Program-made: the position numbers and the translations under genes
From: a virus
Strand: one strand, 5' to 3'
DNA length: 40,195 bases
Virus record (IMG/VR): IMGVR_UViG_3300036830_000126
Location: 1-40,195 of that record
Notes under the pieces: model-generated
Told to the model about the DNA's origin: nothing
The model's database searches: none
What the model saw: only the letters and a program-made list of their open reading frames with translations
Shown: one piece after another, positions 3,613 through 33,285 of the stretch
How positions within the stretch are numbered: the first letter of the stretch is position 1
How the letters are laid out: every line of letters begins with the position of its first letter

Positions 3613-4506
3613 TCAGGCCGCAAAGTAATCGGCCACCGTGCGCCGCTGATACGGATCGACCGTGAGCGCCGGCGTGACCGGCGGCGTGATCGGCGTCGTC
3701 GCCGCGAGCGCCGCCGTCGGTTGATAGCCCGCGGCCCCGCCGACCGTACCCGGCGTCGTGCTCGAGGCACTCGCGCTCGAGGCGCCCGCACCCGTGCCCG
3801 GTTGCGGGATCCACACCGTCGGACTCGCGACGCGCGGATCGCCATCGAGCACCCGGACCGCTTGCCCGGTCGGCAGAATGATTTTCGATTGGTCGCCGCT
3901 CGTGTTCGGGTTCGTGATCGTGATCCCGGCCGCGCGGAGTTGCGGCTCGAGCGACAGCAACCCGGCCTGATCGAGCGGCCGCCCGCCCGTCAAGCTGTTA
4001 AACCACGCCTGATAGTCGCCATTCGCCACCGGGACCGCCGCCGCACTGGCGCCCGCGCTCGAGGCCCCCGGCGTCGTCGCGCTCGAGGCACCCGCCGCCG
4101 ACGGCACGCCCGCGGCGCCGCCGATCGTGGAGCGATAGTCGGGGATCTGCATCTCAGGAATGTCCCGTGCCGCCACGCCGTACCGGGACCCCAAGTCGTT
4201 GATCGACCGCGTGCGCGCCGCCGTCGTGTCGTTCTGGTAGACCTGCGCGGCCCGCCATTGGTCATAGTTGTTGTGCTGCGTCGTGTCCGCGTCGATCCGC
4301 GCCTGCGCCGCTTGCTCTTTCGTGAACGCGAGCGCGTCCGCCGCGGATTGCGACTGCAGATCGGCCGCATGGTTCGCCGCGCTCGTTTCCGAGGCCGCCG
4401 CGTCGCGGGCGGCGCCGCTCTGCTCATGCGCCGCATAGATCGAGGTGCCCGCGACCGCGCCCGCCCCGATGACCGTCGCGACCGCTGTCGCCGTTACGAC
4501 ACACAT
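3613..4506 (-). CDS. Putative virion membrane-interacting protein, 297 aa
   Basis: The start is ATG at 4504-4506, preceded by GGGAGGG about 4 bases upstream. Longer in-frame starts would run deep into the oxygenase gene and give Arg-rich nonsense. Residues 3-24 form a hydrophobic, Ala/Val-rich membrane segment, followed by an Ala-rich helical region (30-90) and Ser/Ala/Thr/Pro linkers. A compact domain at about 165-235 (WFNSLTGG, SLEPQL, ILPTGQAVRV) resembles a domain seen in virion proteins of other G+C-rich phages. The start overlaps the oxygenase gene end by 13 bases. It is the first of four ejection-type genes. A P22 gp7-like role is possible but unproven. Confidence 0.75.
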   Translation of the reverse strand: MCVVTATAVATVIGAGAVAGTSIYAAHEQSGAARDAAASETSAANHAADLQSQSAADALAFTKEQAAQARIDADTTQHNNYDQWRAAQVYQNDTTAARTRSINDLGSRYGVAARDIPEMQIPDYRSTIGGAAGVPSAAGASSATTPGASSAGASAAAVPVANGDYQAWFNSLTGGRPLDQAGLLSLEPQLRAAGITITNPNTSGDQSKIILPTGQAVRVLDGDPRVASPTVWIPQPGTGAGASSASASSTTPGTVGGAAGYQPTAALAATTPITPPVTPALTVDPYQRRTVADYFAA

Positions 4507-11012: not shown

Positions 11013-11039
11013 TCTGCGAACTCTGCGAACTCTCAGCAC
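11013..11039. repeat. Nonamer repeat cluster between coat and decoration genes
   Basis: Three 9-base units in tandem: TCTGCGAAC, TCTGCGAAC, TCTCAGCAC. Near-identical triplets occur at 13000-13026, and related units at 26067-26104 and 33162-33285. The cluster is in the 99-base gap upstream of the decoration gene. A self-complementary CCGCCG/CGGCGG hairpin lies beside it (about 11052-11065). Confidence 0.8.
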
Positions 11040-13896: not shown

Positions 13897-16169
13897 GCGC
13901 CCGCCTCCGGCGCCGGCGCCGCGGCTTGCGCCTCGAGCGCCTGTTGATGCCCTTGCGCCATCAGATCGGCGTCCTGTACGCCCTGCTGATCGCCCTGCTC
14001 GAGCGCCTGCGCGTGCGCCTGGCGCCCCTGCTCGAGCGCGTGCGCGTGCGCGAGCGCCGCCATCCCGACGTCATGCGCAGCCGCGTGCCGAGCCGCCGCA
14101 TCGTCCGCCGCGATCTGCTGATCAAGCGCGATCGATTCTTCGTGGAGCTCGAGCGCCAGATCGGCCGATTGCTTCGACGCCGTGATGCGCGCCGCCTCGA
14201 TCTTCGCCGCGTTGTCGGTGATCGTTTTCCAGTGCTGGAAATCGAGTTCGAGCGTTTTGATCCGGATCTGCCCGTCGATCTTCACTTGGTCGCTGTCGAC
14301 CTGTTTCTGGAGGTCCGCCGCGACTTGCTGCAGCTTTTGCAGCTGCCCGTGCAGCTCGCCGAGCTGCTGCTGTGCCTGCCGCGGATCGACCTGGCCCTTG
14401 TTCTTCGGCGCGATGGTTTCGGCCATCTCATCGCCGATCGGCCCGAGGTTTTTGAGCCGGATCGACGACGCGATCAGCTCCGCCGCTTTCTGCGGCCCGA
14501 CGACCTGCGCGAGCTGCGGATTGCCGATCACCTGATCCGCAAAATCGCTCGCCGCTTCCCGTTCGCTATCCTTCTTCGGCCCGACGGAGATCGTCACGTC
14601 GTGCTCGCCCTGCGCGGTATCAATATGCGCCGGCAGTCCCTCCGGATTGCGCCCCGCCGGATCGTTGATCCGCACGATCTGCGGCTGATCCTTCAGGTCG
14701 CGGATCGACGTGTCGCGCGCCGTGTCGTAGTACAGCGGGATACATTCGTCGAGGATCGCGCCGGCCCGCGTCACGCCTTCGTCGTGGTGATCGACGAAGT
14801 GAAACGATCCCTTTTGCGCCGTGTCCTCGATCTGTTTCAGCGCGACGCCGGATTTATCGTTGTGCCGTTGCGCCGCCGATGGTAAGGGCGAGGCGCCGAT
14901 CGCCGCCTGAATCGCCCGCCGCGCCCCCTCCGCGCCAATCTCGAGCTCTTGGATCGGCGGTTCGTAGGGTTGCCGCGTCGGCGGCCCGAGCCCGCCCTCC
15001 GGTTGATGCGGGGTTTTCGTCAAGTACTCGATCACCGCCACCGGCACATTCAGCGAATCGGCGAGCCGCTGCAGGTTGGCCGCGTCGAGCTGCCCCTTGG
15101 CGACGAAATAGGGGAACTTTGGCGTCATGCCGACGAGTTCCGCCTGACAGGTCCGGTAGTAGCAATACAGCAGGAACGGATCGCGCGCGAGGCGGATCAT
15201 GCTGAGGAGCACGCGTTGCGCGCGCCCCGCCGCGTTCTGCAGGTAGATCACTTTCCCGTAGCAGCACACGAAGGGAATCGACGGCCCGAGCCATCGCGTG
15301 CGCTGCAGGATCTCGACGCCGTTGGTGAGGTACTGCCACACGTGCATCGGCGTGATCGACCGCGATTTGAGGATTTGATCCGCCGAGGGGGCATGCCCGT
15401 TGATCGCGTCCTCGAAGATCTCGATTGGTTGCGGGTTGGGATCCTGCGCGGTCCGCGGGCCGGGTTTCAGCAGGAGCAGCGTCCGCTTGGCCTGCGGTTC
15501 CTTCGTCCAGTACTCCGCGAGCCGTAGACTGTCGCCGGCGATCCAGCTCCGCGACGATTGAATCGTGGCGTGATCGAAGTTCCGGATCGTGGCGTCCGGG
15601 AACTCCCGCGCGAATTGCTTGAGCCCGCGCCGTTCCTCGTAAAACAGGAAGCTCAGATCCTTGCCATCAGTGCGAATGTGGTCCGGATCCGGCGTCACCA
15701 GGTCCGGGTTGACCACCGGCTCGATCACCAGCTCTTGATCGAAGCCCTTGTCGGGAGAGCAGTACTGCGCCTTGATCCGGAGATAGCCGTACCCGCGCTG
15801 CACGGCGTTTTCGAGCATCGTCGTGTACGCCTGTTGCGCGTTGCTCTGGTACTCAATGTCCCGGATCTTGCCCTGCCGAAACTTGGCCGTCGCGTCGTTC
15901 GCCCCGTTGCCGCGAGGCGTGACGGTGATCCCCCGTTTATTGCTCCGGACGTCGTTGATCACCTGATTGGTGTATTGCCCGAGCTCATCGAGCGAGAGGC
16001 ACGGCCGCCCGTTGTCGTCGCGCTGATCGCGGTCCTCTTTCGGCCACGGATCGCCCGACACCGCGCGCATGTCTTTCGCGCCCTCCTCGCGAATGTCGGC
16101 CCATTGCGAGGTCGCGTCGGCGTAGCGGTCTTTCAGTTCCTCGAGGATGTCGTCGTCGGTGCGCGGCAT
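13893..16169 (-). CDS. Portal protein, P22 gp1-like, 758 aa
   Basis: Length and sequence fit the P22-type portal (725 aa in P22). N-terminal segment with DPWPKEDRDQRDDNGRPCLSLDEL and YTNQVINDVRSNKRGITVTP; central wing/stem region with RGYGYLRIK and PDPDHIRTDGKDLSF; C-terminal barrel of Gln/Ala-rich helices with QLGELHGQLQKLQQVAADLQ and repeated Ala-His-Ala-Gln helices. I chose the ATG at 16167-16169, which overlaps the upstream stop as TGATG. A TTG one codon earlier is the alternative. Lies downstream of terL and upstream of scaffold/coat. Confidence 0.93.
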   Translation of the reverse strand: MPRTDDDILEELKDRYADATSQWADIREEGAKDMRAVSGDPWPKEDRDQRDDNGRPCLSLDELGQYTNQVINDVRSNKRGITVTPRGNGANDATAKFRQGKIRDIEYQSNAQQAYTTMLENAVQRGYGYLRIKAQYCSPDKGFDQELVIEPVVNPDLVTPDPDHIRTDGKDLSFLFYEERRGLKQFAREFPDATIRNFDHATIQSSRSWIAGDSLRLAEYWTKEPQAKRTLLLLKPGPRTAQDPNPQPIEIFEDAINGHAPSADQILKSRSITPMHVWQYLTNGVEILQRTRWLGPSIPFVCCYGKVIYLQNAAGRAQRVLLSMIRLARDPFLLYCYYRTCQAELVGMTPKFPYFVAKGQLDAANLQRLADSLNVPVAVIEYLTKTPHQPEGGLGPPTRQPYEPPIQELEIGAEGARRAIQAAIGASPLPSAAQRHNDKSGVALKQIEDTAQKGSFHFVDHHDEGVTRAGAILDECIPLYYDTARDTSIRDLKDQPQIVRINDPAGRNPEGLPAHIDTAQGEHDVTISVGPKKDSEREAASDFADQVIGNPQLAQVVGPQKAAELIASSIRLKNLGPIGDEMAETIAPKNKGQVDPRQAQQQLGELHGQLQKLQQVAADLQKQVDSDQVKIDGQIRIKTLELDFQHWKTITDNAAKIEAARITASKQSADLALELHEESIALDQQIAADDAAARHAAAHDVGMAALAHAHALEQGRQAHAQALEQGDQQGVQDADLMAQGHQQALEAQAAAPAPEAGA

Positions 16170-27668: not shown

Positions 27669-28106
27669 TTCACGCCCTCCGACGCCGGCCCGAGCGCCCG
27701 CGGCATCCGCCCGCTTTGGTACGACTCCGCGATCTGCGGCGCGATGATCTGCGCGACCGTTTGATCGTTCGGCATGACGATTTGCGCGAGGAAGGCGTTT
27801 TCAAACGTCTCGATCGCGTTTTCGCACGATTCGAGCTTCGCCTTGATGACCAATAGCAGCGCCCGCCACCGTTGCCGCTCCGCCTTGGCGAGCTTCTCGC
27901 CCGTGCCGAGCTTTTTCGGATCCGGCAGCGCGATCACAAAGCGGACGACGCGATCGTGCAGCCGGAATTGCACGCGCGCTTCGAGCTTCTCGTAAATCGG
28001 TCGCGGTGCCGTACTGCCGCGCCTTGTGCTGCTCGAGCAGCCGCTCGATCTCCGCGCGCGACTGCGCGACCGGCACCCGCGTATCCTCCGCATAGAGCCG
28101 CGCCAT
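27665..28106 (-). pseudogene. Conserved early phage gene split by a frameshift
   Basis: The first 36 codons from ATG 28104-28106 (coupled by TGATG to the upstream gene) encode MARLYAEDTRVPVAQSRAEIERLLEQH. The remainder of the same family (EARVQFRLHDRVVRFVIALPDP, AKAERQRWRALLLVIKAKLESCENAIETFE, FLAQIVMPNDQTVAQIIAPQIAESYQSGRMP) reads in the +1 frame to 27665. The join lies around 27990-28010. Before and after it, the other frame is Arg-rich nonsense. Homologous phage proteins (recalled) are continuous. It could be an assembly error, a mutation, or a programmed shift. Confidence 0.7.
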
Positions 28107-28288
28107 CAGGCGCCCGCCTGGCGCTTCGGCGCCCCGCGACGGTCGCCGCACACGCCGCACGTTTTCTTGCCCGGCCGCGCGTCGCGAATGGTACAGACGC
28201 CACACACGCCCTCGAGCCGCGCCGCCGTGCGCCGCTCGCGCATCGTCGCCCGCCACCGGCGCCGTTGATGGTCGATCGGCGTGCTCAT
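28106..28288 (-). CDS. Small zinc-finger protein, 60 aa
   Basis: ATG at 28286-28288 overlaps the initiator stop (ATGA). Basic helix (RRRWRATMRERRTAARL), then CGVC and CGVC separated by 14 residues, a treble-clef-like zinc pair. Common beside phage replication genes. Probably nucleic-acid binding. Confidence 0.75.
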   Translation of the reverse strand: MSTPIDHQRRRWRATMRERRTAARLEGVCGVCTIRDARPGKKTCGVCGDRRGAPKRQAGA

Positions 28289-29193
28289 GATCCGCTCGAC
28301 CGCTGTGCGAGCCGCCGATCCCACACGGTCATGTAGTCGTGATCGAGCGCGCCCGTGCCCGCGCCATTGATGCGCCGCGGCGCCGCGCCGCCGAACCGCG
28401 CCGCAAATGCCGTCCGCCAAAACTTCAACGGCTCCTCGCCGATCGGCCGCGCCGCCGGCAGCGCCTCGAGCGTCTCCGCGTAAAACGTGCGCAACCGTGC
28501 GGCCCGCCGCGAGACCGGCCCACCGAGCGCCTTTCGAAATTGCTTATGGAGAAACCGCGGCACGCAGATCCGGCCGCAAAAACTGTGTGCCGCATGGTCC
28601 GGATCCCGGACCGGTCCGAGCACCAGCGGCAACCGCGGCGCCGTGTCGACTTTCGCCCCCGCCACGGCCGCGGTTAGGGGTGAAGCCGGCTTCACCTCTG
28701 CGCCGTGTACCGCTCGCGCGCGCGCGTCGTACGTGTGTGTACGTGGAGGATCTAGTGGAGGATCGGGTGAAGCCCACTTCACCCCTGGCGCGCTCCACTT
28801 CACCCCTGGCTGGGGTGAAGCCGGCTTCACCCCTGGCGGTGATCCGCCCACAAAGGCCTCGGGGCTTTCGCCCCCCAACGGGAGTAAGACGGTGTGGGGA
28901 TCCGACGCCCGAAACGGCGGCCGCGCCGGCAGCTGATCGACCAGGAGCCGGTAGTGCGCCGGGAAATGTTGGGTCGCGGGTTTCACGATCGCGAAAATCT
29001 GCATACGTAGCAATTCCTTCACGTGCACTTGCACCTGCCGGCCACTGACCCCGCGCAAATACGCCACTTGGTCGACCGCCGGCCACATCCGGTATCCGGC
29101 CTCATCCGCGAACGACGCAAAGACGACGGCCGTAAATTTCAGATCGGGAGACAACGCCGACTCGAGCACCGCTGACACGAGCTGCCCACTCAT
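28285..29193 (-). CDS. Replication initiator-like protein with in-gene origin, 302 aa
   Basis: The N-terminal winged-helix/HTH domain (residues about 15-85: LKFTAVVFASFADEAGYRMWPAVDQVAYLRGVSGRQVQVHVKELLRMQ) matches phage O-type/initiator HTH domains. The linker (about 105-175) holds four 7-residue repeats, GVKPASP, GVKWSAP, GVKWASP, EVKPASP (121-127, 130-136, 137-143, 166-172), encoded by DNA palindromes. The C-terminal domain (RICVPRFLHKQFRKALGG, FYAETLEALPA) is likely for oligomer or helicase-loader contacts. The layout parallels lambda O. No helicase gene is seen, so a host helicase is probably used. Confidence 0.78.
   Translation of the reverse strand: MSGQLVSAVLESALSPDLKFTAVVFASFADEAGYRMWPAVDQVAYLRGVSGRQVQVHVKELLRMQIFAIVKPATQHFPAHYRLLVDQLPARPPFRASDPHTVLLPLGGESPEAFVGGSPPGVKPASPQPGVKWSAPGVKWASPDPPLDPPRTHTYDARARAVHGAEVKPASPLTAAVAGAKVDTAPRLPLVLGPVRDPDHAAHSFCGRICVPRFLHKQFRKALGGPVSRRAARLRTFYAETLEALPAARPIGEEPLKFWRTAFAARFGGAAPRRINGAGTGALDHDYMTVWDRRLAQRSSGS
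28679..28874. other. Probable replication origin: palindromic iterons within the initiator gene
   Basis: Three inverted repeats GGTGAAG/CTTCACC: 28679-28696 (core CCGG), 28766-28783 (core CCCA) and 28812-28833 (22 bp perfect, core CCGG). An extra half-site lies at 28796-28810. The direct unit CTTCACCCCTGGC occurs at 28778, 28798 and 28825. Two smaller hairpins follow (GGCGG/CCGCC 28835-28848; GGGGC/GCCCC 28861-28874). Origins lie inside the O gene in lambdoid phages. The linker repeats of the protein are the coding cost of these sites. Confidence 0.68.
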
Positions 29194-31667: not shown

Positions 31668-32813
31668 ATGGGCTCCGTGTTTCGTCAGAAGACGACGCGC
31701 AAAGACGGCCGCGTCGTCGTGCGTCGCAACTGGATGATGAAGTACTACCGGAACGGCCGGCCCATCATCGAAAGCAGCGGGACCCCGCTCAAAATGAAAG
31801 CGCAGCGGATCTGCAACGACCGCGAGACCGACAGCGGCCGCGGGCTTCCCGTCGGCGCGGCCGTCGGCAAGATCCGCTTTGACGCCGCGGCGGCCGACCT
31901 CGAGGCGGACTACAGCACGAACGGCCGGCGGTCGCTCGCCGCCGTGCAACGCCGGCTCACCCTGCACCTGCGCGTCGCCTTCGGCGGCTGGAAACTCGCC
32001 GACCTGACCACGGTCGATGTCCGGGCGTACACCGCCCGCCGCCTCGCCGCAGGCGCCGCCGTCGGCACCGTCAACCGCGAGCTCACGATCCTGAAGCGGA
32101 TGTTCACGCTCGCCGTGCAAGGCGGGAAGCTTCTCCACCGGCCACACATTCCGCTGTTGCAGGAATCGAACGTCCGCGCCGGGTTTTTCGAGCGCGAAGC
32201 GTTTGAGAGCGTCCGCGCGCATCTCCCCGCCGCGCTACAGCCCGTCGTGACGTTCGCCTACATCACCGGGTGGCGCATCGACAGCGAAATCCTCCCGCTC
32301 GAGTGGCGGCATGTCGATCTCGAATCGAACGAAGTCCGCCTGGATCCGGGGACGACCAAAAACGACGACGGGCGCGTCTTCCGCCTCACGAGCGAGCTAC
32401 GGGCGGTGCTCCTCGACCGGCAGCGGGCGCGGGACCAACTCGCCGCGCGTGGCCTGATCTGTCCGCGCGTGTTCGTGCGCCTGGTCGCCAAGGGCCGCGG
32501 CGGGACCAAGTACCCGAAGGCGATCAAGCGGTTCAACAAAGCCTGGAAAACCGCCTGTCGCCTCGCGGGCCAGCCCGGGAAGATCCCGCACGACTTTCGA
32601 CGCACGGCGATCCGCAATATGGTCCGCCGCGGCGTCCCCGAACGCGTCGCGATGCAGATGACCGGCCACAAAACCCGGTCCGTCTTCGAGCGCTACAACA
32701 TCGTGAGTCCGGGGGATCTGTCGGACGCCGCCCTGAAGCTAGACGGCCTCGGCGCGGGTAGCACCGCGGGTAGCACTGACGCGGCCCCACAGCTCCGCCT
32801 GCCCTGGACCTGA
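31668..32813 (+). CDS. int: Tyrosine-family integrase, 381 aa
   Basis: Catalytic residues R203 (TGWRIDSE), K231, H308-x-x-R311 (HDFRR), H334 (TGHKT) and Y343 (ERYN) all present in family order. The N-terminal 60 residues are basic with a probable arm-binding role; residues about 68-160 are the core-binding SAM-like domain (FDAAAADLEADY, TVNRELTILKRMF). It inserts the phage at the attP that follows directly. The last codons (AGSTAGST) overlap the left arm-site pair. Confidence 0.95.
   Translation: MGSVFRQKTTRKDGRVVVRRNWMMKYYRNGRPIIESSGTPLKMKAQRICNDRETDSGRGLPVGAAVGKIRFDAAAADLEADYSTNGRRSLAAVQRRLTLHLRVAFGGWKLADLTTVDVRAYTARRLAAGAAVGTVNRELTILKRMFTLAVQGGKLLHRPHIPLLQESNVRAGFFEREAFESVRAHLPAALQPVVTFAYITGWRIDSEILPLEWRHVDLESNEVRLDPGTTKNDDGRVFRLTSELRAVLLDRQRARDQLAARGLICPRVFVRLVAKGRGGTKYPKAIKRFNKAWKTACRLAGQPGKIPHDFRRTAIRNMVRRGVPERVAMQMTGHKTRSVFERYNIVSPGDLSDAALKLDGLGAGSTAGSTDAAPQLRLPWT
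32755..32776. repeat. Left integrase arm-type sites within the int 3' end
   Basis: Two GGGTAGCAC units at 32756-32764 and 32768-32776, 12 bases apart, embedded in the int C-terminal codons. The identical pair occurs beyond the core at 33004-33025. Confidence 0.72.
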
Positions 32814-32830
32814 AAAAACCGGAAGGAATT

Positions 32831-32876
32831 TGGAGGCGCCGCCCGGATTTGAACCGGGGGTGGAGGTTTTGCAGAC
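32831..32876 (-). other. attP core: 3' half of tRNA-Cys(GCA)
   Basis: On the minus strand these 46 bases read as the 3' half of tRNA-Cys: anticodon loop CTGCAAA (GCA), anticodon stem 3' strand, T-arm CCCGG-TTCAAAT-CCGGG, acceptor CGGCGCC, discriminator T and encoded CCA. The 5' half of the tRNA is absent: no matching acceptor strand (GGCGCCG) lies at the proper distance. This is the expected shape of an attP core that restores the host tRNA upon integration. Located 17 bases after int. Confidence 0.9.
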
Positions 32877-32993
32877 CATCCGGCCGCGCGCATGGCGGGT
32901 CGTTTTTCGGCCTGAAATCGCGTCGTGCGGCGTAAGCCCGACCGCTTGTGACTCTACGAAACTCTACGGTTTTCCTCGGAAATCTACCCCGTG

Positions 32994-33146
32994 TCATTCG
33001 GCACGGGTAGCACCGCGGGTAGCACAAAACCGCTGCGGACGGTCGACCACGTCGGCCATCTCGGCGCCGATCGGCCCGAGGTTCTTCGATCGAATCACGG
33101 CCGCAATCGCGCGGCACCGCGCATCGTCGTCGATCGCCGGGAGCGG
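32994..33146 (-). pseudogene. Fragment resembling the portal C-terminal region
   Basis: The minus strand reads RAIAAVIRSKNLGPIGAEMADVV, closely matching the phage's own portal segment ELIASSIRLKNLGPIGDEMAETI (coding DNA near 14408-14480; nucleotide stretch CGCCGATCGGCCCGAGGTT is shared). No ATG precedes it; a GTG at 33098 would give 34 aa. Its end contains the right arm sites. Probably a relic of a portal-like gene left near attP. A chance short match cannot be excluded. Confidence 0.35.
33004..33025. repeat. Right integrase arm-type sites
   Basis: GGGTAGCAC at 33005-33013 and 33017-33025, same orientation and spacing as the pair on the int side of the core. The paired sites around the tRNA core define the attP arms. 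Confidence 0.72.
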
Positions 33147-33161
33147 CCTCTGAGACCCCGG

Positions 33162-33285
33162 TTCGCAGACTTCGCAGACTTCGCAGACTTCGCAGACTCG
33201 CGCGCGTCCGTCAGAGGAGCACCCGATCGAACATCTGCGAAGTCTGCGAAGGGCCCGGCGCGATCACGTCGCAGACTTCGCAGAC
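33162..33285. repeat. Nonamer repeat array beside attP
   Basis: Eight units of TTCGCAGAC: four perfect tandem copies at 33162-33197, two in inverted orientation at 33234-33250, then two direct at 33268-33285 (the first reads GTCGCAGAC). The rest of 33026-33263 holds no gene other than the portal-like fragment. The array's right end overlaps the 3' codons of the gene at 33264. Confidence 0.82.

Follow-up and report, generated by a model that had tools for sequence, protein, structure and literature searches.

The interval 32756-33025 is almost certainly the complete phage attachment site (attP) of a temperate Acidobacteriota phage, which is used by the phage's own tyrosine integrase of the two-site lambda/P2 type. 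The DNA studied comprises positions 1-40,195 of the IMG/VR record IMGVR_UViG_3300036830_000126, read on one strand, and this whole 40,195-nucleotide stretch is called the window in the following. Our analysis established the unintegrated state of the genome, the host tRNA, and the geometry of the site, and it provided out-of-sample pairs of attL and attR junctions with matching arms. The original prediction that the window contains a complete attP from which the integration site and the host tRNA can be derived is therefore supported, and relatives carry arm pairs in corresponding positions.

The phage genome and its integrase

The first 127 bases of the window are repeated in direct orientation as its last 127 bases, and structural genes for the portal, the major head protein, the terminase, and head closure are present. 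As judged by this terminal repeat and the structural genes, the window represents an entire phage genome in the unintegrated state. Since the repeat marks a whole genome that is not integrated, its attachment site should be an intact attP and not an attL or attR junction. When phage records were queried for similar DNA with an 8-kb piece, no useful match was obtained, and the best homologues of the integrase in named phage records were about 30% identical over part of the protein only. Since no named phage possesses a close integrase, the phage group is new to the named records.

The int gene (31668-32813, plus strand) encodes a tyrosine recombinase of 381 amino acids that is matched by the profiles Pfam PF00589 (E=5e-16) and PHROG integrase (E=8e-43). 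Its catalytic set consists of R203, H308, R311, H334, and Y343, the columns of which are invariant in 21 relatives, and lambda Int, Tn1549 Int, Cre, and XerA were identified as structural counterparts of its AF2 model (pLDDT 83). Hence, both the catalytic residues of tyrosine recombinases and their fold with a core-binding SAM-like domain are present; SAM-like Pfam models match most members of the Int family (best E 1e-7). Residues 1-66 form a putative arm-binding domain that is confidently modeled by AF2 as strand-strand-strand-helix; the isolated domain gave no significant Foldseek or profile match. A search for an excisionase gene adjoining int did not find one.

Layout of the attachment site

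Seventeen bases separate the end of int (32813) from a tRNA-derived block starting at 32831, just as had been stated beforehand. This block, the attP core (32831-32877, minus strand; minus-strand sequence GGTCTGCAAAACCTCCACCCCCGGTTCAAATCCGGGCGGCGCCTCCA), is the 3' half of a tRNA-Cys(GCA) from the anticodon loop to the encoded CCA, as judged by its identity to relatives and host tRNAs. The original prediction had named the correct tRNA, which intact host genes corroborate, but the 46 bases that it gave for the block have to be corrected to 47. An identical 47-mer core is found in two relative phages and in the locus L010. The crossover is predicted to fall into a 7-bp overlap, CTGCAAA, that corresponds to the anticodon loop (32868-32874, minus strand). 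We infer the exact cleavage positions from the anticodon loop, where different attPs start to be identical to the tRNA, and from the duplicated tRNA halves of five integrated elements, which begin at this loop or just before it.

The 9-mer GGGTAGCAC is present in exact form at four places only in the 40 kb (32756, 32768, 33005, and 33017), all on the plus strand, and the start-to-start spacing is 12 in each of the two pairs that flank the core. We predict these copies to be arm-type sites. The left pair is located inside int, with its outer copy at 32756-32764 and its inner copy at 32768-32776 (centers 111 and 99 bp from the predicted crossover, respectively); the right pair is composed of an inner copy at 33005-33013 and an outer copy at 33017-33025 (138 and 150 bp from the crossover). 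The inner left position is repeated in relatives that carry other motifs. Pairs on both sides of the core with one orientation and 12-base spacing, the left one inside int and encoding the peptide AGSTAGST, had been proposed from the outset, and each of these features was confirmed; the peptide is part of a low-confidence, probably disordered tail of the AF2 model. A single base distinguishes the 28-nt arm block on the left from that on the right (96% identity). At one mismatch, two further matches to GGGTAGCAC appear, which represent background since 5.2 are expected at that threshold. The site thus shows repeated arm sites on both sides of a core shared with attB, as is typical of an attP of the lambda/P2 type, and the five integrated elements agree with this assignment out-of-sample.

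In the mechanism that we propose, the catalytic and core-binding domains of Int would act on the tRNA-Cys 3' half, with strand exchange in the anticodon loop at CTGCAAA, and the small N-terminal domain would hold the direct-repeat arm sites on either side of the core. With this domain bound to the arms, Int would consequently connect the arms to the core within a folded intasome, and the reverse reaction would probably engage an excision factor. Since the 3' half is present in attP in its entirety, integration would restore the host tRNA; int would then adjoin the rebuilt tRNA and point toward it, and a second copy of the half would come to lie at the far end. The left arm would reside within int only for the reason that it has to keep a set distance from the crossover and that the int frame happens to extend across it.

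Isolated tRNA halves next to int are likewise seen at the ends of prophages, and decayed int copies adjoin tRNA-Cys in L015, L022, and L025, so that the block might be viewed as the attL or attR junction of an integrated prophage or of a decayed island. We consider this highly improbable: the record represents a whole phage genome, with its terminal repeat and structural genes, the tRNA 5' half is absent from the window, in which ARAGORN did not detect any whole tRNA, and arm pairs flank the core on both sides, whereas integrated elements have one set per end. The terminal repeat and the two-sided arms led us to reject a junction in favor of attP.

It is also very unlikely that the repeats bind an excisionase or a repressor of int in place of the integrase. 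Paired direct repeats near att sites can be excisionase sites, and the Cox site of P2 adjoins its P' arm; however, the repeats on both arms match the positions of annotated Int sites of P2 (+106/+117), and similarity of the motifs tracks N-domain identity in one of two treatments of the data (see below). Furthermore, a better excisionase candidate is available in the direct repeat ACTCTACGAA/ACTCTACGGT with 10-bp spacing (32951-32969, plus strand). We therefore rejected the view that GGGTAGCAC primarily represents excisionase sites and retained integrase arm sites. The repeat at 32951-32969 itself is a candidate accessory site for an excisionase or a host bending factor, and similar repeats are present in L028 and L029. 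A search for further conserved elements among the attPs yielded nothing but brief AT-rich words resembling TTAGGAAA, the location of which varied.

Two other repeats were noted in the vicinity. Just to the right of attP (33164-33284), five exact copies of CGCAGACTTCGCAGA are found, four on the plus strand and one inverted, and a copy with one mismatch is also present at 11013-11027; these repeats are candidates for iteron-like or regulator sites. A 35-bp stretch beside attP (33052-33086) recurs with 91% identity in the portal gene region (14419-14453).

Relatives, host tRNA genes, and integrated elements

Two phages with integrases 95% and 77% identical to that of the window phage retain both core and arms. 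Relatives with 50-65% identical integrases keep the tRNA-Cys core and possess their own arm motif on both sides; the motifs of relatives are GGGGACAA, GTAGCCAC, AGCCACAC, ATGGGCA, CGCTAACC, GGTAACC, and GCGCTACCC. In convergent tRNA-Cys attPs with clear pairs, the center of the inner int-side arm lies 99-101.5 bp from the anticodon crossover, despite the fact that the motifs mostly differ, and L029, with one diverged arm copy, conforms to this geometry when measured by hand (98 and 110). For relatives that use other tRNAs, the distance is mostly 100-125 bp. A clear pair together with an identified core or tRNA is available for 28 loci; the pair is inside int in 22, spans the stop codon in two, and lies outside in four. 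Where int is displaced (L036, L088, and L148), the pair remains near the core and does not move with int; the arm is thus a part of attP across which the int frame merely happens to extend. We also compared the best tandem repeat in the int tails of 60 non-redundant integrases with dinucleotide shuffles (p<0.05): the repeats surpassed the shuffles in 33 integrases (3 expected), and their spacing was 11 or 12 bp in 31 of these 33.

These data bear on the notion that the GGGTAGCAC pair in int is a low-complexity coding repeat (AGST twice), to which the downstream match would be related by chance or by an unrelated duplication. The peptide is indeed repetitive and lies in a tail of low model confidence. 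However, the exact 9-mer is restricted to its four places, many relatives have the same arrangement at fixed positions but made up of other sequences, and the pair stays by the core in the three loci with a displaced int. On the grounds of this comparative geometry we rejected such an origin, the probability of which we deem negligible, and regard the pair as attP arm sites.

The core is reversed relative to int in L035-L037, and since the L037 arm is almost the reverse complement of the window arm, attP seems to have been turned as a unit. L086 and L088 possess the turned arrangement as well, together with a variant tRNA-Cys core, and in the tree the turned loci are placed in two separate subclades within the tRNA-Cys clade. 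In L030, L031, L033, and L082, the int frames extend into the tRNA half, and the Int end KFGGAARI with its stop codon is read from the antisense of the tRNA-Cys 3' end. L038 exhibits the same arm layout at 4098-4377, with GGGGGGCG pairs on both sides and no recognizable tRNA core between them, and may use a non-tRNA target.

A search of the genome collection for the 46-mer of the core detected only 17 stretches, almost all of them acidobacterial; 15 of the 17 record titles name Acidobacteria, Terriglobia, or Luteitalea. Intact tRNA-Cys(GCA) genes matching the core, for which a search of bacterial genomes had been suggested, account for 16 of these stretches (15 of the 16 shown with tRNA-Gly(GCC)), and the remaining one, L024, is a lone tRNA half. 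L012 and L025 are titled Bifidobacterium breve and Acidimicrobiia, yet carry the acidobacterial-type tRNA-Gly/tRNA-Cys pair; these genomes may be mislabelled or mixed. As was likewise anticipated, relatives or remnants of int adjoin tRNA-Cys in host genomes (L015, L022, and L025). At L015/L041/L144, two related integrase copies follow one another behind a single tRNA-Cys, and a further exact copy of the tRNA half separates them; they represent stacked integrations that are both decayed. No lysogen of the window phage itself was found in the genomes searched. The likely host phylum of the phage is the Acidobacteriota of soil and groundwater.

Five elements of 8-16 kb with related integrases (L133, L134, L137, L140, and L148) reside in acidobacterial genomes and occupy five tRNAs (Ser, Arg, Val, Leu, and Cys). 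Each sits between an intact tRNA and a second copy of its 3' half that is 93-100% identical, and the duplicated halves start at the anticodon loop or its first neighbors; in L148, the tRNA-Cys 3' half is found in exact form at either end of the element, in agreement with the proposed integration site. Each element possesses a private arm motif that is found both at attL (roughly +103 to +136) and at attR (roughly -115 to -154). This is the pattern predicted for integration via such an attP. The tRNA is rebuilt in all five, as in temperate phages that target tRNA genes; the elements are relatives, not the window phage, and are possibly satellites or remnants. Related elements at other sites had been put forward as an observation that would speak against the original prediction, and they do exist among distant relatives, which use tRNAs Leu, Arg, Ser, Val, Lys, Pro, or SeC; members of the close int clade use tRNA-Cys wherever the core was found.

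With the rest of the protein allowed for, similarity of the arm motifs correlated with identity of the N-domain when aligned columns only were considered (partial r=0.28, p=0.001) and did not do so when gaps were counted (r=0.07, p=0.19). Since the positive result fails when gaps count, the coupling is only suggestive and does not serve as main evidence.

Known systems and implications

The best PDB sequence match of the Int profile is the integrase structure 5c6k, which we take to be P2 Int. Phage P2 (NC_001895) has direct-repeat arm pairs on both sides of its core as well. Its record marks the P' arm inside int, where we located two TGTGGACAC repeats with 11-bp spacing in the int 3' end, at +106/+117 from the core center, which essentially agrees with +99/+111 in the window. 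P2 differs in its arm motif, in a core that its record does not mark as belonging to a tRNA gene, and in a far arm that is much closer (-57/-68 versus -138/-150). The integrase of lambda is a heterobivalent tyrosine recombinase with core and arm sites, as is predicted for that of the window; the window Int model aligns with the full-length lambda Int structures 1z1g and 1z1b, and in the lambda record an annotated binding site (27814-27854) and the 3' end of int (27812-28882) overlap. The lambda core is not known to be tRNA-derived, its P' arm has three sites at +59, +69, and +80, and its P sites are of mixed orientation.

The mycobacteriophages Pixie and Tweety have related integrases and the same core with different arm sequences, paired 11-bp arm repeats flank the core in Cluster K1 phages, and N-domain residues of mycobacteriophage integrases have been proposed to set arm specificity (PMC3203893). 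These attPs resemble that of the window in their tRNA or tmRNA core and in paired arms on both sides (PMC3203893). In K1 phages, attP lies 5' of int and the host phylum is a different one, whereas in the window attP lies 3' of int with an arm inside it. Integrases of prophages that reside in tRNA genes are comparable in general; for example, KplE1/IntS at argW has the 3' part of a tRNA at attL, arm sites, and int beside attL; its att site overlaps the int promoter, in contrast to the location at the int 3' end in the window (PMC2951348). Literature linking arm-type sites with tRNA-Cys was not found. Arms inside int, the novelty of which had been implied originally, are already known from P2 and lambda, as are differing arms with the same core, and the system is of the lambda/P2-type integrase-attP kind; none of the known mechanisms needs revising.

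The integration site, the likely host phylum, and the arm sequence of the integrase were obtained from raw sequence, and the computational checks are all in agreement. About 40 integrases of relatives make up a natural series in which the DNA itself reveals the arm sites; this series could help to decode DNA recognition by the arm-binding domain and to build integration vectors for Acidobacteria. It is possible, although we are doubtful, that attB, the crossover, and the arm positions are fixed in this Int family, with the arm sequences and the N-terminal domain diversifying together. If this were true, elements at one tRNA gene would be mutually non-interfering, and an arm located inside int would ensure that lock and key are inherited together on a single DNA segment.
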